DNA of 64,000 bases from positions 1 through 64,000 of the forward strand of contig WTXI01000086.1 of assembly GCA_022376515.1 (NCBI GenBank), read 5' to 3'. Positions 10,195-50,625 of this stretch are shown here, piece after piece. The translations under genes and the position numbers were made by a program. The notes beneath the pieces were generated by a model, which made no database searches, had not been told where the DNA came from, and saw only the letters and a program-made list of their open reading frames with translations. This DNA comes from Lactifluus volemus. Taxonomy: Eukaryota > Basidiomycota > Agaricomycetes > Russulales > Russulaceae. Positions within the stretch are counted from its first letter, which is position 1. Every line of letters begins with the position of its first letter.

Positions 10195-10231
10195 GTACCC
10201 TCTCTCTTAGGTGCATGTACCACCATGTGCC

Positions 10232-11976: not shown

Positions 11977-12461
11977 TAGTGTGCAAAAATCGGGAGGAAC
12001 GAGCGGTGGCAGCGGCGGCAAACAATAAAACGGGGGAGCGGGCAGGCGTGCGCGCGGAACGGGAACAGTAGGACGAGACTCTTTCGGAGTCTCGTCTGGT
12101 TACTATATATTGTTCTATAGGCTAGTGGAATTGCTAATTGAAGAAGGGGGACTAGTAGTTTAAGGGAATGGTCTCGATCTTGGCCTCGAGAGCGGCCGCT
12201 CGTAGTGAACGTGGGCGCGGGACTAAGTCCTCGGCGCGGGGAATATACTAACTAAATAAAAGGGGTGTCGAGGATAGAAAAGGAATGGTATAGTAGGTAA
12301 ACGGCTGTGGGCGATCGCCCCCAACGGGGAGCGGTCGTTATCCACACCGGCGGGTCCTCGGGGTGCCTAGGACGTTGGCTGTCCCGTCCTTGGTACCCCC
12401 TAACGCTGGGCGCCGTTTTCGGCCGCCAGCCTTTCTCCCGCGTCCTCGTGATTCCTCGTCA
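11977..12461 (-). repeat. copia-2 3' LTR (485 bp)
   Basis: Matches 16851-17335 along its whole length by eye. It contains a perfect 10-bp stem (GACGAGACTC and GAGTCTCGTC, 12072-12096) just downstream of an ATATATAG TATA-like box in LTR orientation. Gag-Pol terminates inside this LTR. Confidence 0.95.
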
Positions 12462-16749: not shown

Positions 16750-16836
16750 TTTACAGGATGTTGGTTTTGATGGAGAGAGGAGGTGTAAGTGTTTTTAAGC
16801 TCTGAGGGTTCTCGTACTGATTTTAAGATGCAACAG

Positions 16837-16850
16837 CAGGGCCCATAACC
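16837..16850 (-). promoter_or_regulatory. copia-2 primer binding site, initiator tRNA-Met half
   Basis: On the minus strand GGTTATGGGCCCTG abuts the 5' LTR end (CACTA). It is the same site as in copia-1 and complementary to the initiator tRNA-Met anticodon arm. Confidence 0.85.
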
Positions 16851-17335
16851 TAGTGTGCAAAAATCGGGAGGAACGAGCGGTGGCAGCGGCGGCAAACAAT
16901 AAAACGGGGGAGCGGGCAGGCGTGCGCGCGGAACGGGAACAGTAGGACGAGACTCTTTCGGAGTCTCGTCTGGTTACTATATATTGTTCTATAGGCTAGT
17001 GGAATTGCTAATTGAAGAAGGGGGACTAGTAGTTTAAGGGAATGGTCTCGATCTTGGCCTCGAGAGCGGCCGCTCGTAGTGAACGTGGGCGCGGGACTAA
17101 GTCCTCGGCGCGGGGAATATACTAACTAAATAAAAGGGGTGTCGAGGATAGAAAAGGAATGGTATAGTAGGTAAACGGCTGTGGGCGATCGCCCCCAACG
17201 GGGAGCGGTCGTTATCCACACCGGCGGGTCCTCGGGGTGCCTAGGACGTTGGCTGTCCCGTCCTTGGTACCCCCTAACGCTGGGCGCCGTTTTCGGCCGC
17301 CAGCCTTTCTCCCGCGTCCTCGTGATTCCTCGTCA
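16851..17335 (-). repeat. copia-2 5' LTR (485 bp)
   Basis: Same sequence as the left copy by eye. The GC-rich block conserved with the copia-1 LTR (CTCCCCGTTGGGGGCGATCG) lies in its upstream half. Confidence 0.95.
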
Positions 17336-17340
17336 AGTCT

Positions 17341-18579
17341 GTGGGTGATAAGCGGAGCTGATGTTCTGTGTGATTCCTAATAGTTCACACATCTGGCAGG
17401 TGAAGTGCTCAGTAAAATGGGGATCTCTGTCCGAAATGACATGGTGGGGGCAGCCAAAGAGAGGGAAGATGCATTCCACATAGAGCCAGGCCACTTCCTC
17501 TGCGTCAATTGTCTTTTGACAGTGCAGGAAGAAGGCTGCCTTCGAACAATCGTGGTCCACTATAGTGAGGATTGAGTCATACCCCTTCGAAACTGGGAGA
17601 TTGGTGATGAGGTCAAGTGAAATTGTCTGGAAGGGGATCGCTTTTCGCTCAACAGTGATCGGCATCAGTGGTGGTTTGGGTTTCACAGTGTTAGGCTTCA
17701 TCATTTGGCAAGTTGCACACCCTTTGACGTAACTCTGAATAAATTGTTGCATCGTTGGCCACCAGTAGTCTTCAGACACCTTCTGAAGTGTCGTGGCAAT
17801 GCCTGGGTGTCCAGCCAAGGTATGGTCATGGTATTCACATAGGATCTGTTGCTTCAGACCTTCCCGATCCACAACCACAGGTCTCCCTTGATGTACCCAG
17901 TGGTGATTTACTGAGTCCAATGGGTAGGAGCGATGCAGCTCTGTGAAATAGTTTGGTGTGCGTGCTTGCCAATCCCAAACCTGCTGTTCAAGATCGCTGA
18001 CTTCCACTGCCCACGTGAAAAGTTTGTCAGGTAGGACAAGGGTGTTTTCATTATCATGTTTCCCTTCGTCCACTCCTGGTGGTCTGGACAGTGTGTCAGC
18101 CCTATTCAGCTTGCCAGGGTGGTGCACTAGCTTGTAATTGTAGTCCGCAAGGTCACTAAGGTACCTTGCTATGCGTTGGTTAATTCTCTGGGGTTGCTGG
18201 TAGTATCGAAGATTGTTATGGTTGGTGTGCACAATGGCAGTGAAAAGAGAGGAGAGGAACAAGTGTCTCCATTGCCACAGATCTCGGATCACTGCTAAGA
18301 GCTCTCTATCATGGATGTCGTACCCTCTCTCAGCCTCGTTCAACGTCTGGGAGTGGTAGCCCACCGGACAGAGCCTCTGTTTGTCATTTCTTTGATAGAG
18401 GATGGCTCCAGTGGCATACTGGGATGCGTCCACCTCCATCTCGAAGGGGTGGTCATAGTCAGGTCTTTGGAGGACAGGATTGGACTCTATGATTTGGAGG
18501 AGTGCATCCAAGGCTTTGGTGCATTCATCCATCCACTTGAATGGTCATCTCTTCTTCAGCAAGGCAGTAAGTGGTGCCG
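17341..18579 (-). pseudogene. Gypsy-A Pol: RNase H and integrase core
   Basis: Minus-strand frame of ~399 codons. RNase H begins at DECTKALDALLQII and includes EMEVDASQYATGAIL, GYHSQTLNEAERGYDIHDRELLA and TNHNNLRYYQQPQRINQRIARY. The integrase zinc finger follows (H and H in YHDHTLAGHPG, then CATCQ). The core has ISLDLITNLP, VDHDCSKAAFF and VISDRDPHF, ending SSAYHPQT at the copia-2 junction. The reading frame resumes at 11971. A solo A-type LTR separates it from the RT part at 19464. Confidence 0.9.
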
Positions 18580-18584
18580 CAAGG

Positions 18585-19458
18585 TGTTACAGTTATGCGG
18601 GCCATCCGGCCCATTTCTCGTTGTTTTCCATCTATTTTTCGACTTGTGTTATGACCTAGGATCCCTTTCCTTGGCCAGCCCCCTCTGTTTGTCTTCTAGG
18701 GGCTGTGCATCGCTATTTTGGACGTGTACTTGACTCAGGGATCATGACTCAAATCTTGAGTCAGCGTTCTTGACTCAGATCTTGAGTCAGACGCACTGAG
18801 TCAGTTCTTGAGTCATCAGAACTGACTCAGGTCCTTAGTCAATGGTCTTGACTTCGCTACTTTACTGTAACCTTTGTAGGATAGTTGGCTGGCCCTCTGT
18901 ACACATAAATAGGGCCCTATGGACGAGCTAAAGCCCCAGCTTCAGCTTCGTCGAGAATCACAGCAGTTGTTCGCCTGACGCTCAATCTCCCTCTCTTCTT
19001 GTGAATCCCCTCTTCGTACCTTGATCTAGGTACTTTGCGCCACGATCAGACATCTGTGAACTTGTTCCATTTCCGTGAAACCAGTTCCCAGACACCTGAA
19101 CCCTAATACGAACGCGTTGTGAGAAGTAGTCCCCACTTCTCACCCCACGTCCGCCCTAGAACCTTAGTTCAACCTCCCACGAGTGTCCTTGGAAGGCGAG
19201 CATCCCTTGCATTCCAAATACACTTGTGCCCGCATTGCGGTTGAACTTACAGATCGTCCTTTGTCCATCTGCCACCATCTATCCTCTTTGGGAACGGTAA
19301 CTCCAACCATCGCATGCGCCGGCCCGTACTACCCGCCTCACGCGATACGAACCCGAGAGTTCGCACAGTCAAGTCTATCCTTCACAGGAACTTGCCTGTG
19401 CATTCTTCAATTGAATACTGAAGCTCACTTCGAGCCACGGTCCCTGTGAACTGTGACA
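18585..19458 (+). repeat. solo A-type LTR, short variant (874 bp)
   Basis: Begins TGTTACAGTTATG and ends AACTGTGACA. The target duplication CAAGG lies at 18580-18584 and 19459-19463, splitting the Gypsy-A RT/RNase H coding region. It keeps the TGA(C/G)TCA cluster, the CATAAATAGG TATA box and AGCTTCAGCTT. It is ~61 bp shorter than the 935-bp LTRs, and several internal blocks differ, so it is a subfamily. Confidence 0.93.
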
Positions 19459-19463
19459 CAAGG

Positions 19464-20686
19464 TGTGCAAAGTGGGGAATGAATGGTCTCTGGTACCCCA
19501 AAACACCAAGCGTGCTCCGGACCTCCTTTACTGAAGACAAGGTTCAAGGCCACTGAGATAGTCCCTTCCTCTTTGTGGGATCGATGCGGATGGTCCCATG
19601 TTCCACATGGATGCCAAGGTAGTCAATGCTGGTCTGCTCAAACTTGCACTTCGACAGTTTGAGGAAGAAGGATTCTTGGTGGAACATCTCAAGGATTTCT
19701 CGAACTATCCTTCTGTGTTCTCCTACATCTCCTCCTGTGGCAACTAAGACGTCGTCCATGTATACAAACACCTTTCCTGGGTAGTGGTTCATGATCTTGG
19801 CAAAGACCTGATCCATGCAACGTTGAAAAGTGGCCAGAGAGTTCTGGAGGCCAAAGAGCATCAACTTTGGTTGGTACAGGCCAAAGGGAGTCTTAAATGT
19901 GGCCTTCCACCAATCCTCAGGGTGAATCTGGATGTTATGATAGCCCCAACGAATGTCCAATGCCATGAAGAGGGTGCGTCCATGCAGCGCTTCCAGAATT
20001 TGTTCAATGCGAGAGATGGGGTACACATCTCGGATCGTCCAACTGTTCACCTCCCTATAGTCCTGAATGGGTCGAAGACTCCTATCTCTCTTCTTTATGA
20101 AGAACCAAGGGGTCGATCAAGGAGAGTTGGACTTTTCGATGCATCCCCACTGCTCATTCTCTTTTAAGAACTTCTGGGTCACTTCTCTTTCCTCCCTTGT
20201 GAGGGTGTAGACTTTACAATTAATAGTAGCTGGGGTGTCCTCCTTCAAGACAATGGCATGATCTTCTGGTCGTGAAGGCGGGAAGTGGTGGGATTTCTCC
20301 TTGTCAAAGACGTCTGCATAGTCCCGGTATTGGGGTGGTAACACCTTGTGTTTTTCCCCACTGGCTACCTGCTCTTGGTGCACTTTTATGGCCCATTCCT
20401 GGGCCACATTGGTGCGATCAATGCAGGCTGGTTCCTTCTCCCTTTCCTTGTGTATTTGGTGGGGATGCTGGTATTTTCTCCACTTGGTTTCGATCCGTAC
20501 TCCCCCATCCCGTACCTCTCCCTTGGCCCAATTGATGCGAGGATTGAACTCTGAGAGCCAGGGATGTCCTAGGAGTACGTGATCCTTGCCAAGATTGGTG
20601 ATGTAGAACCACTGGAGGGTGTCCTTGCTTCCTACGAGACATCGAAGGATGCAGTATTCCGTGAGCTTTCCAGCCTGGTTCTAAGT
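19464..20686 (-). pseudogene. Gypsy-A Pol: protease tail and reverse transcriptase
   Basis: Minus strand. It begins in the protease tail (FYVTNLGKD, LLGHPWLSEFNPRI) and continues into the RT: FFIKKRD, IQDYREVNSWTIRDVYPI, ALDIRWGYHNIQI, FGLYQPKLMLFGLQNS and the catalytic VYMDDVLVA box. The thumb follows (LGIHVEHGTIRIDP). A TGG to TGA change near 20115 (before STPWFF) stops translation. The left end is cut by the solo A-type LTR at 19458 and the right end by the solo B LTR at 20692. Confidence 0.9.
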
Positions 20687-21171
20687 CCCATTGTTACAGC
20701 TCGACTAGGGCCAGGTCCCAACAAGGGTTCTGGTTGTTCTGGTCTCTCCTAAGACCTGGGCTCAGGGACACCTGAAGTGTCGACACGCTGAGTCCTGTGG
20801 TGTTGTAGCACAACCACCAAGCTTCAAGAGCCTTATTAGGGCGTGTAGGAGGGTAAGGGGAAAAGAGGGAAAGAGGAGAGGAGAGTTCTGTTCTTTAGGA
20901 GAGTGAAACAAGTCGATTTGAGTTAAAGCCGAAGCTGGGGTACAAGCTACCAGCTGAGGCCTACTTATACAATCTGTGCTAATTGTTCTACCAAACTAGG
21001 GTAGACAATAAGCAGGTGGTCAAGAACAATAGGGAACAAGAACAATAGGGACGCGAGACAATAACACTGGACCAATCAGGATGAACAATAGAGCACCAAG
21101 ACAATAGAACAGTCAGCACAATAGAAACAGGGAGGAAGGGACATCATCAGTATGAGTAAGCAGGTTAGGGA

Positions 21172-21687
21172 TGTTACAGAATGCAGGACAAGTTGGACCT
21201 TATGCTTCCTAAACACGCTTACTCATCCTGATGACGTCCCTTCCACATTGTTCTTATTGTGCTGACTGATTCTATTGTCCTGACTGCTTATTGTTCGTCT
21301 CGTTCCGTCCAGTGTTATTGTCCCGAAGTCTCTATTGTTCGCGTTCTCTATTGTTCTTGATCTCATGCTTATTGTCCACCCTAGCTTGGTAGAACAATTA
21401 GCATAAACTGTATAAGTAGGCCTCAGCTGGTAGCTCGTACCCCAGCTTTGGCTTTACCTCCAATTGACTTGTTTCCCTCTCCAGAAAGACAGAACTTCTC
21501 CTCTCCTCTTTCCTCTCTTCTCTCGCCCTCCTATACGCCCTAGTAGGGTCTTCGAAGCTTGGTGGTTGTGCTACAACACCACAGGACTCAGCGCATCGAC
21601 ACTTGGAGTGTCCCTGAGCCCAGGTCTTAGGAGAGACCAGAACAACCAGAACCCTAGTTGGGACCCGGCCCTAGTCGAGCTGTAACA
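21172..21687 (+). repeat. Gypsy-B 5' LTR (516 bp)
   Basis: TGTTACAGAATG to GAGCTGTAACA. Eight ATTGT motifs lie between 21247 and 21375, with one inverted copy (ACAAT) at 21393, upstream of TATAAGTAGG at 21411. The transcript-end segment AGCTTTGGCTTT (21444-21455) pairs with the primer site. Confidence 0.95.
21247..21397 (+). promoter_or_regulatory. array of ATTGT motifs in B-family LTR
   Basis: Eight direct copies of (C/T)(T/A)ATTGT and one inverted ACAAT lie upstream of the TATA box. The reverse complement ACAATAG resembles HMG-box (SOX/MAT-type) binding sites. The factor is inferred; the repetition is seen in every B-family LTR here. Confidence 0.6.
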
Positions 21688-21699
21688 AAAGCCGAAGCT
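21688..21699 (+). promoter_or_regulatory. Gypsy-B self-priming primer binding site
   Basis: AAAGCCGAAGCT abuts the LTR and pairs with AGCTTTGGCTTT at 21444-21455 (one G-U wobble, at a decayed CpG). Confidence 0.75.
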
Positions 21700-22012
21700 T
21701 CTACCACCAGTGTATGTCCACCTGGGACTACCTACAACGACCAGACTACATTTGAATCAAAGAACTGTTGATCGACGCACACCTAAACAAGAATACTGCG
21801 GTGTGAGCATACTATCAGTCCAGAGGAATAGAAAGGTGGTGCTGGAAAGAAGCACTCATTTCCTGTTCACACACGATCGAGCACCTGGAACAAGTAGTCG
21901 GTGCAGGAACAGAATTGTTCCAATCTGAACAAGGAAACACGTTGATCCTCTATTTACCGGGGGATCACATTGCCTTCCATACGCAAGGCTGGACAGGAAT
22001 AACGATGGGTCT

Positions 22013-23734
22013 TTGATCGTTGTCTGGGATACAAACAAAGACGACCTAGGAACTAGAGTCATTCCCAGAGAGGACGACGACCTAACCATCGAACAGAAAG
22101 GGAGCATCAGGTTCTTAGAAGACAGAAGACAAACGTACCAATTACACCAGAAACCGACAACCTATCACTCCTATCACGAAGAAGCGGGGTCAAGAACCAA
22201 GTACAGATCCCCCTGTGAATTCATCAACAATCGGTGGTACAACATCTACTGGTCAAACAGCGAGTACTGGACCGATCCTACTATGAAGTTCACCAAATAC
22301 GACTACATCCTCAACGAACTAGCGCTTCCCCCTTCCCTGCAGCCGTCAGAAGCTAGCGAAGACGAGAGCAAAGACAGAGACGGGACGACATCCCCCCGAC
22401 AGGATTCAGCAGGAGCAAACTCCTCCTCTGATGACAGCCAAACCAGAGAACCCCTGCCTACACAAGAAAATGAAGAACCTAGGTTGATCACCCCAGTCAC
22501 CCCCATAGACCGCGCCATGAGTGCCCTTAGCATCACGTCGCCAACCCCCATGTTTACCCGCTCGGCAACTTTGACACAGCCAACCCAAACCATGGCAATG
22601 GCAGGACCAAGCCAGAGTAGTGGTGGCGGAGGTGGTGGAGGTGATGGAGGTGGCGGAGGTGGCGGAGGTGATGGAGGTGGCGGAGGTGGCGGAGGGGGTG
22701 GAGGTGGTGGCAGAGGCGGAGGCAGAGGCGCCGCAGCTGCAGCAGTTGGGGCCCAACCAGTTGCTCCTCCCAGGAACGGGCTAAAAGGGATACCACCTAC
22801 GCCGTTTAAAGGAGAAAAAGGCCTTTACGATGTCTTCAAAACTGAATGGCGCATGTACAAAGCCATCAACCGAAACCACGATGACATGTTAATCCCCTAC
22901 AATCGTGTCATGACAATGTTAGGAATGGTCAAAGGACCACTGGTGTTGGCATGGGTACAAGACTACCTGGACACCATCGAGCAGGAAGTAGTCCAGCATG
23001 GAGAAAACGCAGAAATCCTGTGGACCAACTTTGAGGACGCCCTAGACGATGCCTTCAAAGACACCAATGAAGAAGACGATGTGATCACAAGGCTAGAACA
23101 CCTAGAGATGAAGAAAGGAAACCTGGCCCAGTATACAGCCGAGTTTAATCGTCTCAGGAAGAAGGCAGGGTGGGATGCCGACAGCAACAGCACCATCAGA
23201 ATGTACAAGAGGGGACTGGACTTAGGGCTCCTCACCAGCATGCTCAAACAAGTAGGGGCAAACCCAAACACCCTGAGGGGTTGGCAAGAGCTGGCCACCT
23301 AGCACCACGACGCTTATTAACAATTGAAGCATGAAATCAGCTTCAGAAAGGACGTTCCTCGATGGGCCAACCAACTCATGGCCAAGAAGAAAGAAACCCC
23401 CCCTCAGAAAGATCCCTGGGCCATGGACATCAATGTTACCAGAACCGACTCAGCTAAAGCGGACGAAAAACAAAGGCTGAGAAAAGAAGGACGGTGCTTC
23501 TTCTGCAAAGAACAAGGACACCTCTCCAGGGATTGCCCTAAAAAGAAAGGACAAAATAATTCCAAGCCGCCACAGCAGCCCAGGGCTAGAGCCAACAAGA
23601 AAGAGGACGACGAAACCACACAAGTTGGTGACGACGATGATCCCATCCAGATGCTCAGAAGCATCAGAGCCAAGATTGGGAAGGGAGCCTTCAATGGCGC
23701 CTTGGATGGGCTGGTAGAAGAAGAGGATTTTTGA
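22013..23734 (+). pseudogene. Gypsy-B Gag
   Basis: An N-terminal domain containing CEFINNRWYNIYW has a counterpart in Gypsy-A Gag (EFINQKWYHVEW). An acidic Ser-rich linker and a pure Gly run (about 22617-22725) follow. Next is the retrotransposon Gag core (LKGIPPTPFKGEKGLYDVFKTEWRMYK, shown only in part here, through AEFNRLRKKAGW). The CCHC knuckle reads CFFCKEQGHLSRDC. An in-frame TAG at 23300-23302 replaces an AAG kept in Gypsy-C (LATKHHDAY), splitting the frame. I see no ATG in frame upstream of LIVVWD, so the true start is uncertain. The natural end is the TGA at 23732-23734. Confidence 0.85.
23726..23734 (+). promoter_or_regulatory. candidate -1 frameshift site between gag and pol
   Basis: GATTTTTGA: the Gag frame reads GAT TTT TGA, and the pol frame (-1) reads TTT TTG through the same T run. 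Gypsy-C (36241-36250) and Gypsy-D (40878-40886) have the same sequence. Slippage of the Phe tRNA next to the stop would give Gag-Pol. Confidence 0.5.
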
Positions 23735-24105
23735 ATGGCTCGACCCGTGCAGCCTGGGTGCGAGCCTGTCTTACTCAAATATGTCGTATCTCGAGAACCA
23801 ATACACTGGACATTCCCCTATCGTTCACGAGTGCGACCAAGACGGCTGCCGAAAAAGCATTACTTGACAGTGGTGCTACAGAAAATTTCATTGACCCAAG
23901 AATGGTGGAAAAGCTAGGCCTGGGATCCATAAACCTCCGGGAACCACGAACGGTGTTCAACGTAGATGGGACGGAGAACCAGGATGGTAAAATCACCAGC
24001 TACTGCCTCCTCAACATCCTCAAAGGACGCAAGGAAGCCGCACAAATCTTTTTCATCACGAACTTGGGCGAAGATCGAATTATCTTGGGATATCCTTGGT
24101 TATGA
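23735..24105 (+). pseudogene. Gypsy-B protease
   Basis: A retropepsin-like aspartic protease in the -1 frame relative to Gag. It has the active site ALLDSGATENFIDP, FNVDGTEN, and the flap/second motif RIILGYPWL. It ends at a TGA (24103-24105) where Gypsy-C has TGG (PWLWEFDP), a nonsense change. It would cut the Gag-Pol polyprotein. RT sequence follows directly in the same frame. Confidence 0.88.
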
Positions 24106-27100
24106 GAGTTTGACCCTCAAATTAACTGGAAGGATGGGAAGGTTCGTGGGCCACCGATCAAGCTTTCCACCACGGGGCGAAGCTGGAAGTTGAAGTGGGC
24201 AGCGCGAAGGACGAAAGCATGCAAGACGAGTTTTAGCCAACAATGGGCGCAACGAGAAGGAAAGGGGCAAAGCAAGGTAGCGGTCCCAGAACAGTTCCAG
24301 AAATACGCCAAAGTTTTCTCTGAAGAAGAAGCAAAACGTTTCCCCTCTTTGCGACCAGAAGACCTTGTTATCACACTGTTGCCAGATGCCCCAAAGACCA
24401 TCAATTGCAAGACATACAAATTAACGGCGGAAGAAACCAAATCCATGCGAACATTCCTCACCAAGCAACAGGCCAAGGGTTACATCACGAGGTCGAAATC
24501 GGCATGGTCCAGCCCCTTCTTCTACATCAAAAAGCAGGACGGGAAGCTGAGGCCAGTCTATGACTACAGAAAAGTGAATGAATGGACAGTTAAGGATGTG
24601 TACCCCCTTCCCCGTATCGACACTATCTTTGACCAGATGGGAGACGCTAAGCTCATGTCCAAATTCGACATTAGAGATGGGTATTATAACATTAGAATCC
24701 ACCCCGATAGCCAGTGGATCACGGCAGTCAAAACGGATGAAGGCCTATTCGAAGTGAAGGTCATGCCCTTTGGACTATGCAATGCGCCAGCCGCCTTCCA
24801 ACGGATGGCAGATCGCATCTTTGCCGATCTAAAAAAGAAATATCCTCATTGGGTTCACTGGTACCTGGACGACTTTCTCATCGTGACCCCTGACGACCCA
24901 GAACTGCACAACCAGATCACCAAGAAGTACCTAGAGATCCTGGAAAAGGAGTCGCTCTTCCTGAAGCCAGAAAAATGTCAGTTCGCCAGGAAGGAGATAG
25001 AGTTTCTGGGATATGTCATCAATCAGGGTACCATCCGCATCGACCCAAGTAAGAAGCATGGCCTGGCAGACTGGCCTCGACAACTGAAGTCAGTATGGGA
25101 GGTCCACAGCACACTTGGGGTCTTGGGCTATCAACGGCAGTTCATTCCAGGATTCGCGAATGTGGCTAGGCCCCTAACCAACCTATTAAAGAAAACGACC
25201 AAGTTCGAATGGACCGAGGAATGTACGAAGGCAGTGGACCAACTGATCAAGGCAGTCACTAGCGATCCGGTGTTACAGCGGCCTAATTTAGCCAAACCAT
25301 TTGTGCTAGAAGTCGACGCTTTGCAATACGCCAGTGGGGCAATCCTCCATCAACCAGACAAGGATCAGAAGTTGCGCCCAGTGGGCTACTACTCGCGAAC
25401 GTTCAACCAAGCCGAGAGAAACTATGATATCCAACTATTGGCAATGATCCGAGGGTTGGAACATTGGCGACACCTCCTGCTAAGCTCCCCACACGTTGTT
25501 ACAGTTGTCAGCGATCACGCAAACCTCCAGTACTATCGGGAGGCCCACAAAATTAGCAGGCGAGTGGCACGCTACATCCCAAAGATGGCGGAGTACAACA
25601 TGAGGATCGTACACCGGCCTGGAAAAACTAACAAAGCTGACCCACTGTCACGACGACCAGGGTGTGATCAGGGGGAGAACGATCACGAAGATGTGCTGGT
25701 CCTACCCCCGGAACTTTTTGTACGTCTCTTCACCGAGGAACAATCGCTGGAGCAGGAAGTGGAACGAGCCCAAGAACGGCACCAACAACAGCTGGAAGAA
25801 TGGACAAAGACAGAAGGAGTGCAAAAGCACCAAACACGCTTTGGAGCCAAGTGGTATCACCACGACCGGCTGGCGGTTCCAGAAGACCCCACAGTGCACC
25901 GAAGCATCCTGCAAATGTACCATGACCACAAGATGGCAGGGCACCCAGGGATCATGAGAACTTGGTCCACGATTGCCAAGGACTACTGGTGGCCCACAAT
26001 GAGAACGTTCATCACCAAATATGTGCAAGGGTGTGCAACTTGCCAAAGCACCAAGAGCGGCACGACCAGACCTAAAGTCCCCTTGGTGCCCATACCCCCA
26101 AAACAAAGCTATGCCCCATATTCGACAATTGCCTTAGACCTGATCACAGACCTCCCAGAGTCGCAAGGCTACGATAGCATTCTGACCATCACCGACCATG
26201 ATTGTAGCAAGGTGGCGTTCTTTATCCCCTGCAACAAAACCATCGACAGTGAAGGGGTTGCGAGATGCTATGCCAAAGAGGTGTTCCCCCATTACGGCCC
26301 TCCAAAGCAGGTGATCTCGGATTGCGATCTGTGCTTCGCATCAAAATGGACAAGAGAACTGTGTAGACAATTGGGGATTGACCAGAACATCAGTACGGCA
26401 TACCACCCCCAGACAGATGGCCAATCGGAATGAACGAACCAATGGCTAGAACAATACCTGCGCGTTTATGGAAATTTCCAACAGAATGACTGGGTCAGCT
26501 GGTTGCCTCTAGCCCAATTCGTACACAACTCGTGGATCAATGAAACAACAAAACAAACCCCGTTCGACTTACTCATGGGACACACGCCCACGGTGTGGCA
26601 AACGGATAAGGAAGGAAAGATGCCAGCAGTAGAACAGCGCAAAGATTATCTGATGGAGAAACGTAACCAAGCGCACCAAGCGATCCAAAGGGCGCAAGAT
26701 CTCCTCCAGAAGTGGAACGTGCAAAAGAAGGGCAGGCGGGCATATGAACCCTTCAAGGAGGGAGACCAAGTTTGGCTAGACAGGAAGAATCTCAAAACGT
26801 CACACCCCTTCGCCAAATTAGCCCCGAAACGATACAGCCCGTTCCCAGTGGTCCAGGTGATTAACCCGGTGGTTTTCAAACTGAAACTCCCAGATCAGTG
26901 GTGTCAAAAACGTGTCCACCTGGTCTTCCATGCATCCCTTCTATCCCCATATAAGGAGACGGAAGAGAATGGACAAGCCTTCACAGAACCAGCCCCAGAT
27001 GTAATAGAAGGTGAAGAAGAGTATGAGGTCGAACAAGTGTTGGACTCCAGACAAAAAGACGTGGCAAAGGGCGCCTCGAGTACTTCCTGAAATGGGAGGG

Positions 27101-27296
27101 GTACCCCCACGCTCACAACACCTGGGAGCCAGCTGATCAAGTGCATGCGGACGATTTGGTAGAAGAGTTCCACAAACAAAACCCAACAAAAGCTAGAAAG
27201 ATTATATTAAGACGTGGGAGAATGGACAACAGACAATGCAGCTTTGCCTTCTCTTCCAAGAGCCCCACGAACCCCCCTTCGTTACCCCTCACTTTC
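24106..27296 (+). pseudogene. Gypsy-B reverse transcriptase, RNase H, integrase, chromodomain
   Basis: RT: FFYIKKQDGKLRPVYDYR, SKFDIRDGYYNIRI, VMPFGLCNAPAAFQRM, catalytic WYLDDFLIV. RNase H: VLEVDALQYASGAIL, ERNYDIQLLAMIRG, VSDHANLQYY. Integrase: zinc finger in MYHDHKMAGHPG and CATCQSTK, core IALDLITDLP, ITDHDCSK, VISDCDLCF (the usual DRD is DCD), STAYHPQTDGQSE. At 26431 CGA has become TGA (SERTNQW in relatives). Near 27055 one A is missing from a run, shifting out of RQKRRGKGRLEY. The chromodomain follows (EYFLKWEGYPHAHNTWEP). The frame then continues through an ATG at 27222 (MDNRQCSF) into the extension. It is otherwise well preserved. Confidence 0.92.
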
Positions 27297-28232
27297 TGTC
27301 ACGGTTCGCAGGGACCGTGGCTCGAAGTGAGCTTCGTTTGGGTTGGCTATTTGCTGTGGCGAGTCGGACAAGACTAGCAACACCAAATAGTCGATTCTAG
27401 AACGCGCAGGCAAGGTCCAACAAGGAGTAGACTTGACTGTGCGAACTCTCGGGGTTCGTATTGCGTGAGGCGGTTAACACGGGCCGGCGCACGCGATGGT
27501 TGGAGTTACCGTTCCTAAAGAGGATAGATGGTGGCAGATGGATGAATGATGATGTGTAGGTTCAACCGCAACACAGGCGCGAGTGTAATTGGGATGCAAG
27601 GGAGTCTCGCCTTCCAAGGACACTCGTGGGAGGTTGAACTAAGGTTTGTAATGTGGATGCAGGGTGAGAAGTGAGACTACTTCTCACAACGCGTTTGTAT
27701 TAGGGTTCAGGCGTCTGGGGACTTGTTTCAAGGAAATGGAACAAGTTCACAGATGTCTGATCGTGGCGTGAAGTACCTAGATCAAGGTACGAAGAGGGGA
27801 TTTACAAGAAGAGAGGAGGAGATGTGATGCGAGTGTGAGCAGGAGACAATGAACTGCGATTCTAGACGAAGCTGAAGCTGGGGCTTTAGCTTGTCTACAG
27901 GGCCCTATTTATGCGTACAGAGGGCCAGCCAACTATCCTACAAAGGTCACAGTACAGTAGCGAAGTCAAGACTATTGACTAAGGACCTGAGTCAGTTCTG
28001 ATGACTCAAGAACTGACTCAGTGCGTCTGACTCAAGATCTGAGTCAAGAACGCTGACTCAAGATTTGAGTCATGATCCCTGAGTCAAATACACATCCAAA
28101 ACGGCGACGCACAGCCCCTAGAAGCGGAACAGAAGGGGCTGGCCAAGGAAAGGGATCCTAGGTCACAACACAAGTCGAAAATCAGACAGAAAACAGTAAG
28201 AAATGGGCTGGGCGGCCCGCATAACCGTAACA
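27297..28232 (-). repeat. solo A-family LTR inside Gypsy-B (936 bp)
   Basis: Minus orientation, TG...CA. The target duplication CTTTC (27292-27296, 28233-28237) lies in the Pol extension. Removing it restores the frame LTF-ASSSSND. This shows the A family jumped after Gypsy-B, while B-family copies sit in Gypsy-A. Confidence 0.94.
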
Positions 28233-28237
28233 CTTTC

Positions 28238-29359
28238 GCGAGTTCTTCCTCAAACGACAGATCCACATCACCTACGCCCATCATAGCCAGCATAAACACT
28301 TCTGTTGGGAGGCCATCTGCGCTTCCCATTACTAATTCCCCTGTTACCTCGCTCCCTTACACCTGGGAGGAAATCCAATCTGCAAACCTCAACCTCACCC
28401 TTCCTCAAATCTTCAAAGCTTCCCGGGCAGACGCCGACTTCTTCGATCCCAAATGAGAACACCGCACGTCCCCCAGCTCCTTTATAGTTGACTACCGTCA
28501 AGTTCGTCTCGTGTGTCTGGGGATCCCGTATGACTGGCCAGTGGGGCGCGAAAACAACTACGAGTGGCCTTACAATCCCTATAAGTACTACGAGGATACC
28601 CGACAGTGTCTTCACTGTCTTTTCGACTTCAAGTGGAGGAGAGACCACCCCGGAGCCCAGAGGCGTACCCATATCTTCACTGACGGCCGTAGCACCATGG
28701 TTGCCCAAAGGCTGGGTGACTTCGCTAGACCAGAAACCCCTGAAGAAGAATGGTTTGAGGAGGACAACGAAGGCAGGTTACGCATCAACCTCCTTCGTGC
28801 TCCCATGATCCCCACTGTCGTGGCGGCGCAGACAGACGGTTGGGTCCCGGATCTGCCCCCTCAAACCTGCAGCGTTGGCACCCAGACGACCACAGTTAGC
28901 ACAAAAGACAAAGCCATTCAGGCGTTCCCCACCTACGGGACCACCGAGTATTGGCTCGACCAGAAGGATGGTAATCCCAGGGGTTCTCAGCAGAGAGATC
29001 GGGATATGGAACCACGAGCACGCCTTACTCTTCACCCACACGGACTTGATCGCCTGGGACTCGATTCTGGAGGTCTTCAGAGATTCGATTTTCCAAATGA
29101 CTCTACGCCACGTAGAGAACTGAAGCACTGCCGTTTTCATGACAGAATGATGACCCACAACAGTGATGGGTGTCCCTTCCCCCACTTTTCGTGTATGCCA
29201 GGGCTTGGGGTGTGCCGCGTACCCGAGGTCCACGTGTGGCATGGCGGCGGGTGTCTCCTGGACAGCACAGTCGAAGAGATCAAGAGGAAGCGCAAACAGA
29301 TGGAAGTACTGGATGCTTGTGTCACCAGTCCGTCCCAGTTACGACGTAAAACTGACTAG
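28238..29359 (+). pseudogene. Gypsy-B Pol C-terminal extension, Cys/His-rich
   Basis: This continues the Pol frame after the chromodomain: a Ser/Pro-rich linker, TWEEIQSANLNLTL, and DADFFDPK, then a TGA at 28454-28456 that is most simply a mutated CGA. It stays open to 29359 (VDYRQVRLVCLGIPYDWPVG, YEDTRQCLHCLFDFKWRRDH, CRFHDRMMTHNSDGCPFPHF, HVWHGGGC). The Cys/His spacing suggests metal binding, but I recognise no named domain. No signal peptide or membrane segment is seen, so it is not envelope-like. It occupies the same place as the zinc-knuckle extension of the A family. Confidence 0.65.
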
Positions 29360-29395
29360 GGTGGCAGGTGGGACTGCCTTCTAGAGAGGGGGTAT

Positions 29396-29911
29396 TGTTA
29401 CAGAATGCAGGACAAGTTGGACCTTATGCTTCCTAAACACGCTTACTCATCCTGATGACGTCCCTTCCACATTGTTCTTATTGTGCTGACTGATTCTATT
29501 GTCCTGACTGCTTATTGTTCGTCTCGTTCCGTCCAGTGTTATTGTCCCGAAGTCTCTATTGTTCGCGTTCTCTATTGTTCTTGATCTCATGCTTATTGTC
29601 CACCCTAGCTTGGTAGAACAATTAGCATAAACTGTATAAGTAGGCCTCAGCTGGTAGCTCGTACCCCAGCTTTGGCTTTACCTCCAATCGACTTGTTTCC
29701 CTCTCCAGAAAGACAGAACTTCTCCTCTCCTCTTTCCTCTCTTCTCTTGCCCTCCTATACGCCCTAGTAGGGTCTTCGAAGCTTGGTGGTTGTGCTACAA
29801 CACCACAGGACTCAGCGCATCAACACTTGGAGTGTCCCTGAGCCCAGGTCTTAGGAGAGACCAGAACAACCAGAACCCTAGTTGGGACCTGGCCCTAGTC
29901 GAGCTGTAACA
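29396..29911 (+). repeat. Gypsy-B 3' LTR (516 bp)
   Basis: Pairs with 21172-21687, preceded by the purine tract AGAGAGGGGG and followed by target duplication AGGGA. Confidence 0.95.
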
Positions 29912-29956
29912 AGGGAAGCATAAGGTCCAACATGTCCTGCATTCCATAACACCCAT

Positions 29957-30157
29957 CCACATTGTACACATAGTGAGGGTGAGGAAGTTTCTGGGTGCTA
30001 AGTCCCCATTGTTAGACCGTCTGTTGGTCAAGGAAGTTTTCTGTGGCTCCACTGTTGATTAATGCAATGTCTGTGACCGTTTTGTGAACATTTGAAAATG
30101 AAATGGGCAAATTCAAAGCATTGGCATTGGCATAGCTAATGTACATTTGTTTCAGTC
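29957..30157 (-). pseudogene. Gypsy-A protease, active-site Asp lost
   Basis: Minus strand: MYISYANANALNLPISFSN, then ALINSGATENFLDQ. The catalytic Asp of DSG is Asn (GAC to AAC), and a stop follows in place of an Arg codon (LDQQTV then stop). Gypsy-D has the intact IDSGATENF. It overlaps the end of Gag in the -1 frame and is cut by the solo B LTR at 29951. Confidence 0.88.
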
Positions 30158-32074
30158 CTAAGGCTCGTACCCAGGTCGCGCAGCACAAGCTCTTCGAAAA
30201 TCCTGGGGCACAGAGTCAGTGGAGTCAACCATATCCTTGATAAAATGTTCTTTGTCGTCGTCAGACAACTTCAGGAGCCCTTCCATAAGTTGGTCATGGG
30301 TGATTTCTTTTCTTTCTTCTTCAACAGCCTGCACAGCGGCAAGGCACTGAGCAGGCTTGTTGCCCTTGTTCTGGTTCTTCTTCTTCTCAGGGCACATGTG
30401 GCTCACATGGCCCTGCCGGTGGCAAATGAAGCAGCGACCTTCCGCCACTAACTTCTTCTTTTCTTCAGGAGTAGGCCCCCCTGTGCGGATGGCGTCAATG
30501 TCTATGGCATCAGAGGGTTGTGGTTTTGTTTGCCTGTCCTGCTGGTACCTCCCCAATGCTGCAGCAAGGCGTTGGCGGAAGTTCTGACCTGGCCTGTCTC
30601 CAGAGGTGGCTCTGGCTTTGATCCACCTCCCTTGACACCTTAAGGCCATGTCTTGCCATCCCTTCAAAGTGTCGGGCAAGGTGGCCTCAAAATCAATGAT
30701 CTTTTCACAGAGGGCCCACTTCAAGCCATCCTTGAATCAAAGGAGGGTCCCTTGTTCATTTGGACCCCACTTGGCAAGAGTGATTAGCGTATTGAAATCA
30801 TTGATGTATGTTTTGAGGTCCTCCCCATGCATCTGCAGGGTGAGCAGACACCTCAATGCCTCCTCTCTGGCCACAGTGTTCTGAAATTGAGCTTTGAATG
30901 CTGTGTCGAAGTCCGTCCAGACCTGCTCATTGTTTGGATCAATGGCCAGAAGGTGATTTGGGTGCTGTTGCCACATCGCTACCCCATTCATCAAAGGCTG
31001 GATGATTCCATTGACCCACTGGTCGACTGCTTTGCCTTGGATCCTTCCCACACAGGTGAGGACCCACATGTAGGGGCTGCTTATGGAGGGGTGGTCCCGA
31101 TTCATCTCCCAGAAGACTGTGAAGGCACAGCAGAAGCATGCGAGGTTGTCGCAATCCCCATTGAAAATCTCAGGGATCGTGCCATAAAGGGCCGATGGGT
31201 GGGGTGGCTGGCCTCCTGCTGGTTGTCCTCCTGCAGGAATGCCTCCTCTGCCTCCATCTCCACTTTCTCCCAGCTGTGCCCCAGCCAGAGGTTCTCCTCC
31301 AGGTTGCCCAGAGGAGCTGTATCCTGTGATGCCTGCTAGTGTGGTAACAGCGGTGCCAACCGTAGCTGACCTGATGAACGCACTACCACTGGGCACACTA
31401 GGATGAGGTTGTGGAGAGGGGGAGAGAGCAGCTGGAAACATGGTGGGATCTACCAACATTCCACTGGTTGGGTCTGTCACCATTGACACACTGACGTCAG
31501 AGTATGGTGATTCCATTTGTTTCTGCACTGGGGGCACTTGCAACGTCGAGGTTGGTTCAAGCTGCTGATGAATTCCAGGGGGAACACTGGTTAGAGGGGG
31601 TTGTGCGGCTTGATAGACCAGTTCAAACAACTGTCCAGTAGGTGAAAGTGCTTCGGGTCATTCTGGGGTGCTTCCAGATCCTGAGCCTGCCGGTGTTAAG
31701 GACAGTGCGTGTACTGGATAGTCTGGGTGCTGTGGATCACTTGGTTTCCACCAGCCGAGTTCAAATCGTGCAATGTCGTCGTCTGTGACGTATCTTCCTA
31801 TCTCCGTCGTGTAGGTCTGTGGTTTATCGAACCACTCGACGTGATACCACTTCTGGTTGATAAACTCAATGGGTCTGTGTGGATCTCCTTTGTCAAAAGC
31901 CCAATAGGCACTCTGCTTGGGGTTTTCTTGACATTCTATCCAAAAGGCATGCCCAACTACGTGGTCTGGGAGGTCTGGTTCGTTTCTGGTTTTGACTCTG
32001 GTAAGCTTCCCCTTCTCTGTGGTCCAACCAACTGTTATGGAAGGCATTTTGTCGATCAGTCGCCCACTCTTCAC
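30158..32074 (-). pseudogene. Gypsy-A Gag
   Basis: Minus strand, start at MKSGRLIDKMPSITVGW by comparison with the ATG of Gypsy-D at 38510. The N-terminal domain contains PIEFINQKWYHVEWFDK. A Pro/Ser and Gly linker follows, then the Gag core (LYGTIPEIFNGD, KAQFQNTVAREEALRCLLTL, TYINDFNTLI). The CCHC knuckle is CFICHRQGHVSHMC. The frame is broken near 31650 and 30730 by stops. In Gypsy-D the same protein is open for 487 codons. The end reads QDFRRACAARPGYEP and overlaps the protease frame. Confidence 0.9.
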
Positions 32075-32235
32075 AAGAGGAGCGGTCTCAGTAGCCTATG
32101 AGTTGTTCACTCCAACAAGATGAATGAAAAATTTCTGTGCACTCTGGCACACACCTTCTTGGCCTGAAAAGAAAGTGAGCAATGGTCTGGTTCGTTCAGG
32201 GTACACTTCTTGTGACGAAGAAGTGGAGGGATAGG

Positions 32236-32247
32236 AGCTTCAGCTTA
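32236..32247 (-). promoter_or_regulatory. Gypsy-A self-priming primer binding site
   Basis: On the minus strand TAAGCTGAAGCT abuts the 5' LTR. Eleven bases are the perfect reverse complement of AGCTTCAGCTT in the LTR (32820-32830 on this strand). Confidence 0.75.
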
Positions 32248-33182
32248 TGTCACAGTTTGCAGGGACTGTGGCTTGAAGTGAGCGTCGTTTGGGTTGGCTA
32301 TTTGCTGTGGCGAGTTGGACAAGACTAGCAACACCAAATAGTCAATTCTAGCATGTGCAGGCAAGGTCCCGTAAGGAGTAGACTTGACTGTGCGAACTCT
32401 CGGTGTTCATATCGTGTGAGACAGACTAGCGGACCGGCACATGCGATGGTCAGAGTTACTGTTCCTAAAAAGGATAGATGGTGGCAGATGGGTTAATGAT
32501 GATGTGTAGGTTCAACCACAACATAGGTGCGAGCGTACTATGCCCAGAAAGGATCTTTCTAGCCCTAGTATGTTAGTGCGAGATTAAACTAAGGTTCAAG
32601 GGCAGATGCGGTATGAGAAGTGGGGATTACTTCTCGCAGTGTGTTCGTATTAGGGTTCAGGCATCTGTGAGCTAGTTCCAAAGGTAATGGACCAAGCGAA
32701 CAGATGTCTGATGGTGGCGCGAAGTACCTAGATCAAGGTACAAAGAGGGGATTCACAAGAAGAGAGGAGAAGATGCAATGCAAGTGTGAGCAGGAGACAA
32801 TGAACTGCGATTCTGGATGAAGCTGAAGCTGGGGCTTTAGCTCATTCACAGGGCCCTATTTATGTGTACAGAGGGCCAGCCAACTATCCTACAAGGGTCA
32901 CAGTAAAGTAGTGAAGTCAAGACCATTGACTAAGGACCTGAGTCAGTTCTGATGACTCAAGAACTGACTCAGTGCGTCTGACTCAAGATCTGAGTCAAGA
33001 ACGCTGACTCAAGATTTGAGTCATGATCTCTGAGTCAAATACATGTCCAAAACAGTGACACACAGCCCCTAGAAGTTGAACAGAGGGGGCTGGCCAAGGA
33101 AAGGGGTCCTAGGTCATAACACAAGTTGAAAAATAGATGGAAAACAGTAGGAATGGGCCAGATGGCCCGCATAACTGTAACA
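32248..33182 (-). repeat. Gypsy-A 5' LTR (935 bp)
   Basis: Minus orientation, TG...CA, same length as the left LTR. It carries the TGA(C/G)TCA cluster, a CATAAATAGG-type TATA box and the AGCTTCAGCTT segment. Confidence 0.93.
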
Positions 33183-33187
33183 CTTCC

Positions 33188-34208
33188 ACTTCCTCTGTGG
33201 CACCTCCCCAGCCCTCAGGCTCGCAGGATGAGGCTGGCACCAATTCCCAGGATTTTTCACCACCGGTTTTTACTGGGACCCCCATTTCTCAGCCCTCTTC
33301 AACCCCCGAGTTAATACCCCCCCCAGTGGATATGGCTGGCGGGGGGGGCAAACCCTTGCAGGACCCTGTTTACTTCTCACCAAAGGAGAAACTACCCCTA
33401 CACAGGGCCCTTACTGTGAATGACGAGCTCTCAGTCTTTGACATTCACAACATCTTCTGTCATCGCTGGTTTCTCTCTTGGGACCACCTCATGGCCAACG
33501 TCATCTCGGCCCAAAAGGCTGAAGATGGGAAAAGTTCCTGGGTTGAGTTTACTCCCCCTTACCATGCTCACCTGGTCAAGTGCGCTGTTATGCTTGTGCC
33601 TCGCCCCCTCCAGAAGGTGAAAAAGGTGATGTTTGCATATGTTTTAGAAACTTTAAATGGAGAGGCCCCCAAAGCCTTTTTCAACCTCACAAAGGGCCCC
33701 AGCCTCGCAGCCAAGGCCCAGAAGGAGAAGAAATGTCTTGCATGGAAAAGGAATCATGCATTGAGGTGAGAACACTGACAAATGGTCAAAGAAGCCGCTG
33801 GAGGCCGATCACAACAGACCTGTGAGAAGTGCAGATGCAAGTTTGGCTTTTGTAAGGCCCAGAAGCGACACTGATGCCCTATTTCCAAGGAGATGAGCGG
33901 AAAGGGAGGAGAGGCAAAGGGTAAGGGTAAAGCCAAACCCCCTGCCACCTCGAACAAGCCAAAGGCTCCATCAAAAGCCCCTATCCCCCCCCCCCCCCAC
34001 CTTCAAAGTTGACCCACCACCCACCACCCCCCTCGAGATGGCCAAGAGGCATGCACCCAAAGTAGGCATTGCCGCTGTGGGGCCAGCAACCTTCTTTGAG
34101 CAGTTGAACATCAGGGCTCCCCCTGCCTGTCACTCAAACTGGCTTAACACCATGGCAAAGAGGGGCACGAGGGCACAGGTGATGGAATCAGTAATTGATA
34201 AACCTTGA
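33188..34208 (+). pseudogene. R1 protein, central and C-terminal part; unknown family
   Basis: The frame is open to a TGA at 33767-33769, and coding similarity with R2 continues to about 34208 through further stops. What can be seen: a Pro/Ser-rich linker; a ~130-residue conserved region (with DPVYFSPKEKLPLHRALTVN, FDIHNIFCHRWFLSWDHLM, and YVLETLNGEAPKAFF); then a Cys-rich motif CEKCRCKFGFCK followed by H and C; and a basic KGKGKAKPPATSNKPK tail. It is not an RT, endonuclease or transposase I recognise. A nucleic-acid-binding role is inferred only from the Cys cluster and basic tail. Stops such as those near 33778 and 33872 show decay. Confidence 0.6.
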
Positions 34209-34377
34209 GCTGTGGTTCTGTCAGGGTCTAGATGCAGTGTGTCTGGGTGACACTTTGGACTTTTTATGGTACCAACTCTCTTGTAGGAAGTACCTCGTTA
34301 CATACACCCCAGCACTATATAAATTTGATTTTTTCTTTTTTTTTTTTTTTTTTAAAAAAAAAAATACAGCAGTATGA

Positions 34378-47773: not shown

Positions 47774-47785
47774 AAGTATGTGGGT

Positions 47786-49095
47786 CGAGCCTTCTTGACT
47801 TCTTACCACCACCATTGATTTTTCAACGATGTCCTCCCCCCCTTGGTCTCCCTCCACTCCCTCCTTCTCCATCAAGCTGAGTAACCTGGGCACCGCACTA
47901 CAGGCAGCCAGCTGAAAGATAGCAGAGAGTGACAGTCTGAGGCCCTCTAAACCTCCCACTTCCTCTGTGGCACCTCCCTAGCCTTTGGGCTCGCAGGATG
48001 AGGCTGGCACCAATTTCCAGGATTTTTCACCACCAGTTTTTACTGGGACCCCCATTTCTCAGCCCTCTTCAACCCCCGAGTTAATACCCCCCCAGTGGAT
48101 ACAGCTGGCAGGGGGGGGGCAAACCCTCACAGGACCCTGTTTACTTCTCACCAAAGAAGAAACTCCCCCCATGTAGGGCTCTTTCTGCAAATGATGAGCT
48201 CTCAGTCTTTGACATTTACAACATCTTCTAATGCCACTGGTTCCTGTCCTGGGATCACCTCATGACCAATGTCATCTTGGCCCAAAAGGCTGAGGACAGA
48301 AAAATTTTTTGGGTCAAGTTTACTCCCCCATACCACACTCACCTGGTCAAGTGCGCTGTTACACTTGTTCCTCACCCCCTCCAGAAGGTGAAAAAGGTGA
48401 TGTTTGCATACATCTTAGAAACACTCAATGGAGAGGCCCCCAAAGCCTTTTTTGACCTCACAAAGGGCCTGAGCCTCACATCTAAGGCCCAGAAGAAGAA
48501 GAAACACCTTGCATGGAAAAGGAATCATGCATTAAGGCAAGAACACCAGTGAGTGGCTGAAGAAGCTGCTAGTGGCTGATCACAATGGACATATGAGAAG
48601 TGCAGATGCAAGTTCGGCTCTCATAAGGCCCAGAAGTGACATCAATGCCCTATTTCCAAAGGGGAGAGCAGGAAGGGAGGAGAGGCCAAGGGCAAGGGTA
48701 AAACCAAAACCCCTGCCACCTCGAACAAGCCAAAGGCTCCACCCAAAGCCCCCATTGCCCCCCCCACCTTTAAAGTCGACCCACTACCCACCACCCTCCT
48801 TGAGGCAGCCAAGCAGCATGTACCCAAAACTGCTATAGCAGCTGAGGGGCCAGCAACCTACTTTGAGCAGCCAAACGTTGGGGCTTCCCCAGCCTGTCAT
48901 TTAAACTGGCTTAACACCACAGCAAAGAGAGGCATGAGGCAATGGGTGATGGAATCAGTAATCAATAAACCTTGAGCCATAGTTCTGTCAGGGTCTAGAT
49001 GCAGTGTGTCTGGGTGTCACTTTGGACCTTTTCTGGTTCTGACTCTCTTGTAGAAAGTACCTCGTTACATACACCCCCATGCTATATAAATTTGA

Positions 49096-49127
<32 letters not shown>
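47786..49127 (+). mobile_element. R2: second copy of the T/A-tailed retroposon
   Basis: 1342 bp with target duplication AAGTATGTGGGT (47774-47785, 49128-49139). The 5' end (CGAGCCTTCTTGAC) matches R1 and the 3' end is a T run followed by an A run. It is uninterrupted, so it shows the empty Gypsy-A target (AAACCTCCCACTTCC near 47950). It sits in the fossil LINE. Confidence 0.82.
47829..48975 (+). pseudogene. R2 protein, unknown family
   Basis: Homologous to the R1 protein from ATGTCCTCCCCC to KP-stop. It keeps DELSVFDI, the FVTNVIL/SAQKAED-type segment, PYHTHLVKCAVTLVP, YILETLNGEAPKAFFDLTKG, the Cys motif YEKCRCKFGSHK and the basic KGKTKTPATSNKPKAPP tail. It is broken by a frameshift in the N-terminal third and by several stops. 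Comparing R1 and R2 gives an ancestral protein of roughly 360-400 residues. Confidence 0.6.
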
Positions 49128-49130
<3 letters not shown>

Positions 49131-50625
49131 TATGTGGGTGGGACTTTGTGTGAGGTAGGTCATCTGGGAAGGTCTCTAGAACTATTATGGGTTACAGATT
49201 GAAGAAACATTGATATAGGGTAGTAGCTATAAGGACTGGTTGGTCAGATAGGCCTGCTGCTTTCATCAAAGCTGGGATAAGATGTTAGTATCTGCCAAAA
49301 TACCATTTGGCTACCATCTATAAACATTCTGAGGAGGCACTGTGGAGAAGGTCATTGGCCCAATGGTGTTTTGCCACTGTGACCTCCTTCCTAAGGAGTT
49401 TGTTAGTGTTTTTGCAAGCTTTGGGTTCCTGAGTGTCCCAAGTAACTGCCACCACCCAATCACACACATCATCCTATCATGAAGCCCCTTTAGGTAAGAA
49501 CTGTTTCTGGCCATGCTCATTTGTTTGATATCATAGATAAGTTGAAGTGCCACCTGGTCTAAGTCTTCCACAGAGTTGAGAGGGGGGAAATATAAGGATA
49601 TACCTTGAGGAACTAGCAGATCCAGAGCTCTCTTGCCTCATCTGCAAATAACAAACCAGGTGTGCTGTGGAAGGGGGTTGATTGCTAATTCCAAAATGTG
49701 CTGGTAGGTAAACCAGATGCTGGCATGGTCCAAGCCTATGGAGGCTACAAAGTCAACAATTGGGTTCTGGAAAGTGTTATCAAGAATGATAGCAGTGTTG
49801 GTCCACATCAGGTCAATCATTGTATTGTGCTGGTTACCTTCTCCTCTCCAAGTTGGGATGCCTGGGGGAGGTGGCCAGGGCAGGTTCTAGCTAAAAGCCC
49901 ATTCCTCCAGATCATCTGACCAAGGGAAGGACCAGATACTAGAGAGTAACCAGAAGTGTGAATGGGTGTTGAAGTCCCTAGTGATAATCATGGGAATCTC
50001 AGAGTTTGTTTTCAGGTTGAGGATATTATCTAGCAAGGAGCAGTGGCTTGTGTCATAATAGATGTTAATGGCATGGAAGGAGCTGAAGCCCAGATAGACA
50101 TCCAGATTGAGAGTGTGGTAATTTGAGGCCAGGTCAAGGCAGTTAGTGATGTTGGAGTGTGTAAAGTAATGTGACAGTATGCTATAACTTTGCATTGTAT
50201 GCTTTACTTGGTCTTTGGGTATATGCAGTCCCATTTTGGGTTAGTGGCCCCACCCAGGAGGCACATCAGGAAAACTCTACATGGTAAAATCTGCACAAAT
50301 GAACCAAATGGTACAAAAAAACCTAAATGATATATGAAACTGCTGTATTTTGGTTATAATTGGTTTACTTGCAACATCCTTGTTATTTGTTTGAAAAAGT
50401 TTCAGTTTTTTGTGTTTTTTGGTGCTAAGCAAATGGAAATATTACATGACAAACACACAATTATTTTTTTATTTTGCCACACCACTACAATTTGTACCAA
50501 AAATTTTTATTGGAATATGATAATACATTTTACTAGATACTGTATGCAAAATGTGGTGAGCAAGAAATGGGGGAGAAACTTGGAGTGATCCAGAGGGGGG
50601 GGGGTTGATCCGGTAGGGGGGGCAC

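Follow-up and report, generated by a model that had tools for sequence, protein, structure and literature searches.

The 64,000-nucleotide stretch of Lactifluus volemus contig WTXI01000086.1 analysed here (the window, to which all positions without a contig label refer) contains two plus-strand copies of a repeat, termed R, that encodes a single protein and no reverse transcriptase (RT). Copy 1 follows a left target-site duplication, AATACAGCAGTACGA, at 9070..9084, which is identical at 14 of 15 positions to its right-hand partner, AATACAGCAGTATGA, at 34363..34377. Between the two lie a 5' piece at 9085..9259, comprising the true 5' end (CAAGCCTTCTTGACTTCTTACCACCACCAT...), the 5' untranslated region (UTR) and the start of the open reading frame (ORF), with a match to the R 5'-end pattern described below at 9088; a nested cluster of long terminal repeat (LTR) retroelements at 9260..33182, about 24 kb running from TGT to ACA, with limits set by eye; and a 3' piece at 33188..34362, comprising the remainder of the broken ORF, the 3' UTR and a T/A-rich tail. 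Copy 2, which is 85% identical to copy 1, is present end to end at 47786..49127, with a broken ORF and a T/A tail, and is framed by duplications at 47774..47785 (AAGTATGTGGGT) and 49128..49139 that agree at 12 of 12 positions. The protein core is interrupted by three TGA codons in one copy and by three TGA and one TAA codon in the other. An initial annotation, placed on the 3' piece of copy 1, had described two copies with a common 3' end, an A tail, direct target duplications and one protein ORF without RT, and our analysis bears this description out, with the ORF broken in both copies.

The same annotation took base 33188 as a 5' end shared by both copies. The common start is real, but it lies at 9085, with the LTR nest in between. 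The cluster is framed by a 5-bp duplication, CTCCC at 9255-9259 and CTTCC at 33183-33187 (four of five positions identical), repeat pairs occur within it (9260-9992 matches 32248-32980), and 33188 is the first base past its duplication. In six of the seven other copies compared (L003-L008), about 175 bp of additional similarity extends upstream of the position equivalent to 33188 and ends at one common point; the seventh, L002, is itself interrupted and does not have this extension. We conclude that the LTR cluster inserted inside R copy 1, and that 33188 is therefore the edge of the cluster and not the 5' end of R.

By eye, the cluster consists of a minus-strand element broken by gypsy-like and copia-like elements and a solo LTR. 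An unoccupied target related to that of copy 1 (12 of 15 positions identical to the duplication) is found on the plus strand at 21792..21806, in another gypsy-like element. A second site in the genome (L099, C168:151200-152700) has the gypsy-like flank of the window, the R 5' piece and the LTR edge, and may be a duplicated segment or a haplotype copy of the 5' junction of copy 1.

We searched the assembly to which the window belongs (62.4 Mb in 628 contigs) for further copies. A DNA search with R returned at least 43 matches, ten of which span nearly the full query and two of which cover the T/A tail only; on this ground R is a genuine repeat. A protein search with the 160-residue R core returned at least 119 matching stretches, a count of stretches and not of copies, as one copy may yield several. 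The 77 loci fetched hold 86 copy clusters, and for 62 of these a script was able to find both ends, leaving 17 without a recognised 5' end and 7 without a recognised 3' end. A target duplication of 10-21 bp (score of at least 10) frames 55 of the 62 end-to-end copies; most are 12-18 bp long and 40 of the 55 fall between 14 and 16 bp. When 5' flanks were paired with the 3' flanks of other copies as a control, only 3 of 310 pairings gave a duplication. The 55 copies have 52 distinct duplication strings. Strings are shared by L044 and L045 and by L053, L054 and L076, which suggests that each of these sets is one locus present more than once. In 27 of the 55 copies the duplication stops right at the aligned R start, and in 40 it does so to within 1 nt; its first and second bases are A in 48 and 38 copies, respectively. 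The initial annotation had favoured an element over two retrocopies of one host mRNA, and one aligned 5' start at this many different targets speaks for that choice.

The framed elements cluster at lengths of about 1.30, 1.43 and 1.51 kb, with 53 of the 55 between 1.29 and 1.53 kb and two longer. From sequence and ends we defined types A (the window type), B, C, D, E and F; these labels are our own. Type A starts with CAAGCC, types B and C mostly with CATTCC and some B copies with CAGGTC, and an A-rich 3' run is present in the copies of types A, B, C, E and F that we examined. The two E copies read have duplications recognised by eye: L079 carries GATACTCCTCTACTC, and L106 carries ATCCCAGATGTGGTTC, the latter with five additional bases between the duplication and the 5' box, and two 5'-truncated R copies lie on C445 (L104, L105). 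A minus-strand copy, L043, has a type D-like 3' sequence, yet an A run is present. L079 (C224:273000-275300) lies within a frame that by eye resembles an F-box or leucine-rich-repeat host gene, giving a fused frame; a database protein that matches R (P0134) is labelled PF12937.

An intact, element-spanning ORF of 381-459 amino acids is retained in 20 of the 62 end-to-end copies. Alignments and two predicted structures (pLDDT, the predicted local distance difference test score, 74 and 81) suggest that the protein opens with a poorly ordered N-terminal region, followed by a compact core, then a long helix of basic character, then a C2H2-type finger with the pattern C-x2-C ... H-x-C, and ends in a Pro/Lys-rich tail. 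The core is predicted to fold as two helices, a two-strand hairpin and two further helices; type E and many relatives from Russula and Lactarius have an extra small C-terminal domain. Pfam scans of the protein gave no family above the cut-off, with zinc-finger families and MAJIN coming close, and fold searches gave nothing at E ≤ 0.001. Chains of BEN-domain proteins (4x0g, 4ix7, 7yun) recur among the weak matches to the core, which we treat as a lead only. Judged from its sequence, the R protein is probably nucleic-acid-binding.

Among the matches listed by two protein searches (at least 120 each), relatives of the R protein occur in Lactifluus, Lactarius and Russula, in some cases several per species (for example, four L. 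quietus sequences in our tree set), and the core is conserved across the three genera. A tree built from 52 cores, with midpoint rooting alone, separates one clade of type E, Russula and Lactarius sequences and one metagenome entry from another of types A-D and F and metagenome entries; both clades occur in the L. volemus genome. Within types, the ratio of nonsynonymous to synonymous divergence (dN/dS, ratio of means over the core) is 0.088 for B (n=9) and 0.094 for D (n=10), both young types, 0.16 for C (n=4) and 0.21 for A (n=7), for groups hand-picked from 74 copies with an in-frame core and with stop codons skipped; between type representatives it is 0.10-0.39 over the core. In type B, CpG sites hold 406 of 937 differences, and in type D 235 of 539 (pairs summed). 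Neutral simulations with transition and CpG bias (0, 30 or 60% CpG mutations, 200 runs each) gave medians of 0.61-0.71 and a minimum never below 0.17. The substitution pattern thus indicates strong purifying selection on the R protein.

The 5' end of R resembles the 5' ends of long interspersed nuclear elements (LINEs). A search with the R 5'-end pattern, allowing three mismatches, found 57 places, and the reversed control pattern found none. Nine of the 57 read CCCTCCTTGACCTCTTACCACCACCAT, and one of these nine (L078) proved to be a LINE 5' end followed by a 484-amino-acid ORF1 frame within the 2.5 kb read. Downstream of such ends, on the same strand, a LINE ORF2 was found on C627, C372, C423 and C619, and we named this family, an autonomous LINE, LINE60. 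Its copy on C627, the one whose ends were checked, starts with CATCCCTCC immediately downstream of the duplication AACGTGGGGTGTGTG and closes with AATTC and an A run, followed by the same duplication (L088, L093). The first 30 nt of R match the LINE60 30-mer at 26 positions in type A, 24 in B, 24 in C and 25 in D, and none of 200,000 shuffles did as well for any of these types. In type E the 5' box runs directly into the start codon, CTCTTACCACCATG.

A similar box, CTCCTTAACCTCTTACCACCACCAT, stands at 61436..61460 on the minus strand of the window itself, belonging to a second LINE that we call LINE88. This element encodes an ORF1 of 635 amino acids without a Pfam match (59401..61308, minus strand) and an ORF2 with endonuclease and RT (55204..58185, minus strand; RVT_1 3.1e-28, Exo_endo_phos_2 4.1e-9), which in the window is shorter at its C-terminus than in other copies. 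At 54700-55200, after this ORF2, lies a piece that by eye resembles a DDE transposase gene. LINE60, LINE88 and a third family, LINE-P, are labels coined in this analysis; all three are putatively Tad-like.

LINE-P came to light at the 3' end of R. The type E copy on C224 has the C-terminus of a LINE ORF2 encoded downstream of the R ORF, and a corresponding piece sits 366-381 bp downstream of the R core at all four E loci (C224, C426, C83, C598). The same piece occurs in long frames of 1339 codons on C31 and 1321 codons on C17 and C322, which define LINE-P, another autonomous LINE. Over 524 bp, the tail of the C224 copy (L079) shares 93.5% identity with the LINE-P 3' end on C31, a match that spans the stop codon and the 3' UTR up to the A run; over 522 bp, the tail of the C83 copy (L106) shares 86.4% identity with the LINE-P 3' end. 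In type A, the last 45 nt resemble LINE-P better than any of 2000 shuffles in three of three copies, and the LINE60 and LINE88 ends less well (12 to 488 of 2000 shuffles); these shuffle tests comprised 21 comparisons and are uncorrected for their number. Copies of LINE60 and LINE-P with stop-free long ORF2 frames exist in the assembly. One LINE-P copy (L100, C31:86900-90600) begins, right after its target duplication, with a tandem array of several units, each about 19 bp long (CATGGACCTTAATCCAGTA).

We also sought partner LINEs through the 3' ends of other R types. The type D 3' pattern found 19 places, none farther than about 0.5 kb from an R core; the type A pattern found 13, all of them R loci; and the A2 3' UTR found six, namely five R loci and C445. 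The B 3' UTR found 27 places, five of them more than 1 kb from an R core (C53:12830, C607:343285, C614:83555, C110:10547 and C445:1275782). The C445 places found with the B and A2 3' UTRs were ruled out as a partner LINE, both being 5'-truncated R copies. The other four may be R copies that are truncated or interrupted, or may conceivably mark a partner LINE.

To what class of element does R belong? It has inserted repeatedly at A-rich targets with duplications, its copies have common starts, and in several types its ends are LINE-like. An autonomous LINE encodes endonuclease and RT, for which the framed R, with one ORF, is too short. A tblastn search with the window ORF2, including its RT, and with three ORF2 C-terminal pieces found no RT in line behind the R ORF at 79 R loci, whose flanks are often only 0.5-1.5 kb; the sole LINE ORF2 matches were the tail of type E, limited to the C-terminus, a LINE that carries an inserted D copy (L066) and ORF2 pieces on the other strand (L006, L031). 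R is also unlike a short interspersed nuclear element (SINE), being 1.29-1.53 kb long in 53 of 55 framed copies, having an ORF under selection and showing no RNA polymerase III RNA family in the loci scanned: when four R loci and one LINE locus were run against Rfam, nothing of the tRNA, 5S or 7SL type came up. Variable duplications at a fixed 5' end, and end sequence in common with a LINE, place it among LINE-dependent non-autonomous retroposons in the broad sense. From these observations, we propose, with a probability of roughly 0.85, that R is a non-autonomous, protein-coding, LINE-mobilised non-LTR retroposon of the Russulaceae.

Several observations weigh against this proposal. The 3' ends of types C and F resemble LINE-P only weakly, at a level reached by 3 and 4 of 2000 shuffles, and for B and D comparison with the three LINE ends revealed nothing alike. 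LINE-P itself starts without the R-like 5' box, and the box shared with the other LINEs is so short that it could have arisen by convergence as a functional motif. Type D (L051-L076) lacks an A tail and ends in ACACTC, ACACAC or ATTCAC, although its copies still carry regular duplications of about 14 bp. Finally, 7 of the 62 end-to-end copies gave no duplication.

A different origin would be that the copies are processed retrocopies, made by LINEs, of one mRNA or of the transcripts of a host gene family. The absence of introns and of RT, the A tails, the target duplications and the conserved protein are just what such retrocopies would leave, but retrocopies would not be expected to bear LINE-like sequence at both ends, nor to fall into several subfamilies with separate insertions and purifying selection in each, nor to begin at one aligned start across 52 distinct duplications. 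Moreover, no intron-bearing parent gene was found among the R loci read in the L. volemus assembly, and in 74 of the 86 clusters the core, if stops are tolerated, runs for 150-170 codons with no gap the size of an intron. We consider retrocopies very unlikely. Still less credence is due to the idea that R is a transcript-derived chimera fixed by chance, with a protein that has no role and a low dN/dS owing to mutation bias. The share of differences at CpG sites lends it some substance, yet the simulated neutral ratios did not descend to the observed 0.09, and the core has been conserved across three genera.

The descent of R from a LINE deserves more weight. In its strict form, modelled on the mammalian HAL1, R would have arisen by deletion from a full LINE that encoded the R protein as its ORF1, that LINE now being extinct or not in the assembly. 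The LINE-like ends and the ORF2 piece retained by type E fit such a descent, as do two Lactarius gene models (P0081, P0115) that by eye run from the R protein into sequence like the C-terminus of a LINE ORF2. Against it, the duplications frame R without an RT, the tblastn search found none behind the R ORF at the 79 loci with their often short flanks, and the two ends of R resemble two different LINEs. The initial annotation had likened R to an ORF1-only LINE derivative; we find no support for that wording, as an hhalign comparison of the R profile with the ORF1s of LINE88 and LINE-P, the only two compared, gave no similarity (probability below 1%). By sequence comparison, then, the R protein appears private, with no LINE ancestor detected among these two ORF1s. 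We regard deletion from a full LINE as unlikely, and R is more aptly viewed as a private ORF set between LINE-like ends.

For R as a LINE-mobilised retroposon, we envisage the following cycle. The 5' box would serve as transcription start, acting as an internal or initiator promoter; the R RNA would be translated and bound by the R protein; a LINE endonuclease and RT would take the R RNA in trans by way of its LINE-like 3' end; and copying would proceed at A-rich nicks by target-primed reverse transcription, often reaching the full 5' end. Going further, and tentatively, since we hold it at somewhat under even odds, R may be a stable parasite of LINEs whose private, non-ORF1 protein (compact core, basic helix and C2H2-type finger) loads R RNA in cis onto the RT of two or more LINE families. 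Over its history R would have exchanged LINE 3' ends and so tracked whichever LINE was active, and it would constitute a class of protein-coding retroposon, neither SINE nor cut-down LINE, kept within one fungal family since before Russula, Lactarius and Lactifluus split.

A literature search found no description of R; subscription papers and repeat databases lay largely outside its scope, and a Repbase entry is possible. In general, most RT-less parasites of LINEs are SINEs that encode no protein or LINEs from which ORF2 has been lost. R codes for a protein, apparently its own, under strong selection, and has ends like those of two different LINEs. If that protein acts in cis, it offers a handle on what a parasite must supply to win a LINE RT and on whether ORF1-like functions can arise independently. 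If our reading is true, a set of 'hypothetical proteins' of Russula, Lactarius and Lactifluus would be relabelled as mobile-element genes.

SINEs with LINE tails are mobilised in trans, as R would be. SINEs with a LINE-derived 3' tail are described (PMC3747384), and such a tail is also what types E and A of R possess. R differs from them in its length of 1.3-1.5 kb, its ORF of about 380-460 amino acids and its lack of a tRNA-, 5S- or 7SL-type Rfam match. TRE5-A.2 of Dictyostelium discoideum is the direct parallel: it resembles R in having one ORF and lacking ORF2, and is apparently mobilised in trans by the ORF2 protein of the full element; it is unlike R in being derived from one parent LINE and in that its ORF is the ORF1 of that LINE (PMC5391098). 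The R protein, in contrast, matches neither ORF1 compared, and the ends of R resemble two different LINEs. HAL1, the half-LINE-1 of mammals, has an A tail, as most types of R do. HAL1 is presented as LINE-derived, consisting of the ORF1-coding part without the rest, and as descending from LINE-1, whereas the R ORF has no detected LINE ancestor (PMC4859970). The ingi/L1Tc LINEs of trypanosomatids and their SINE-like partners share a 5'-terminal box, Pr77, which is a promoter (PMC8190864). R is like this clade in that autonomous and non-autonomous elements have a 5'-terminal box in common; it is unlike the Pr77 partners in that its box is about 30 nt long and a putative promoter only, and in that R encodes a protein.
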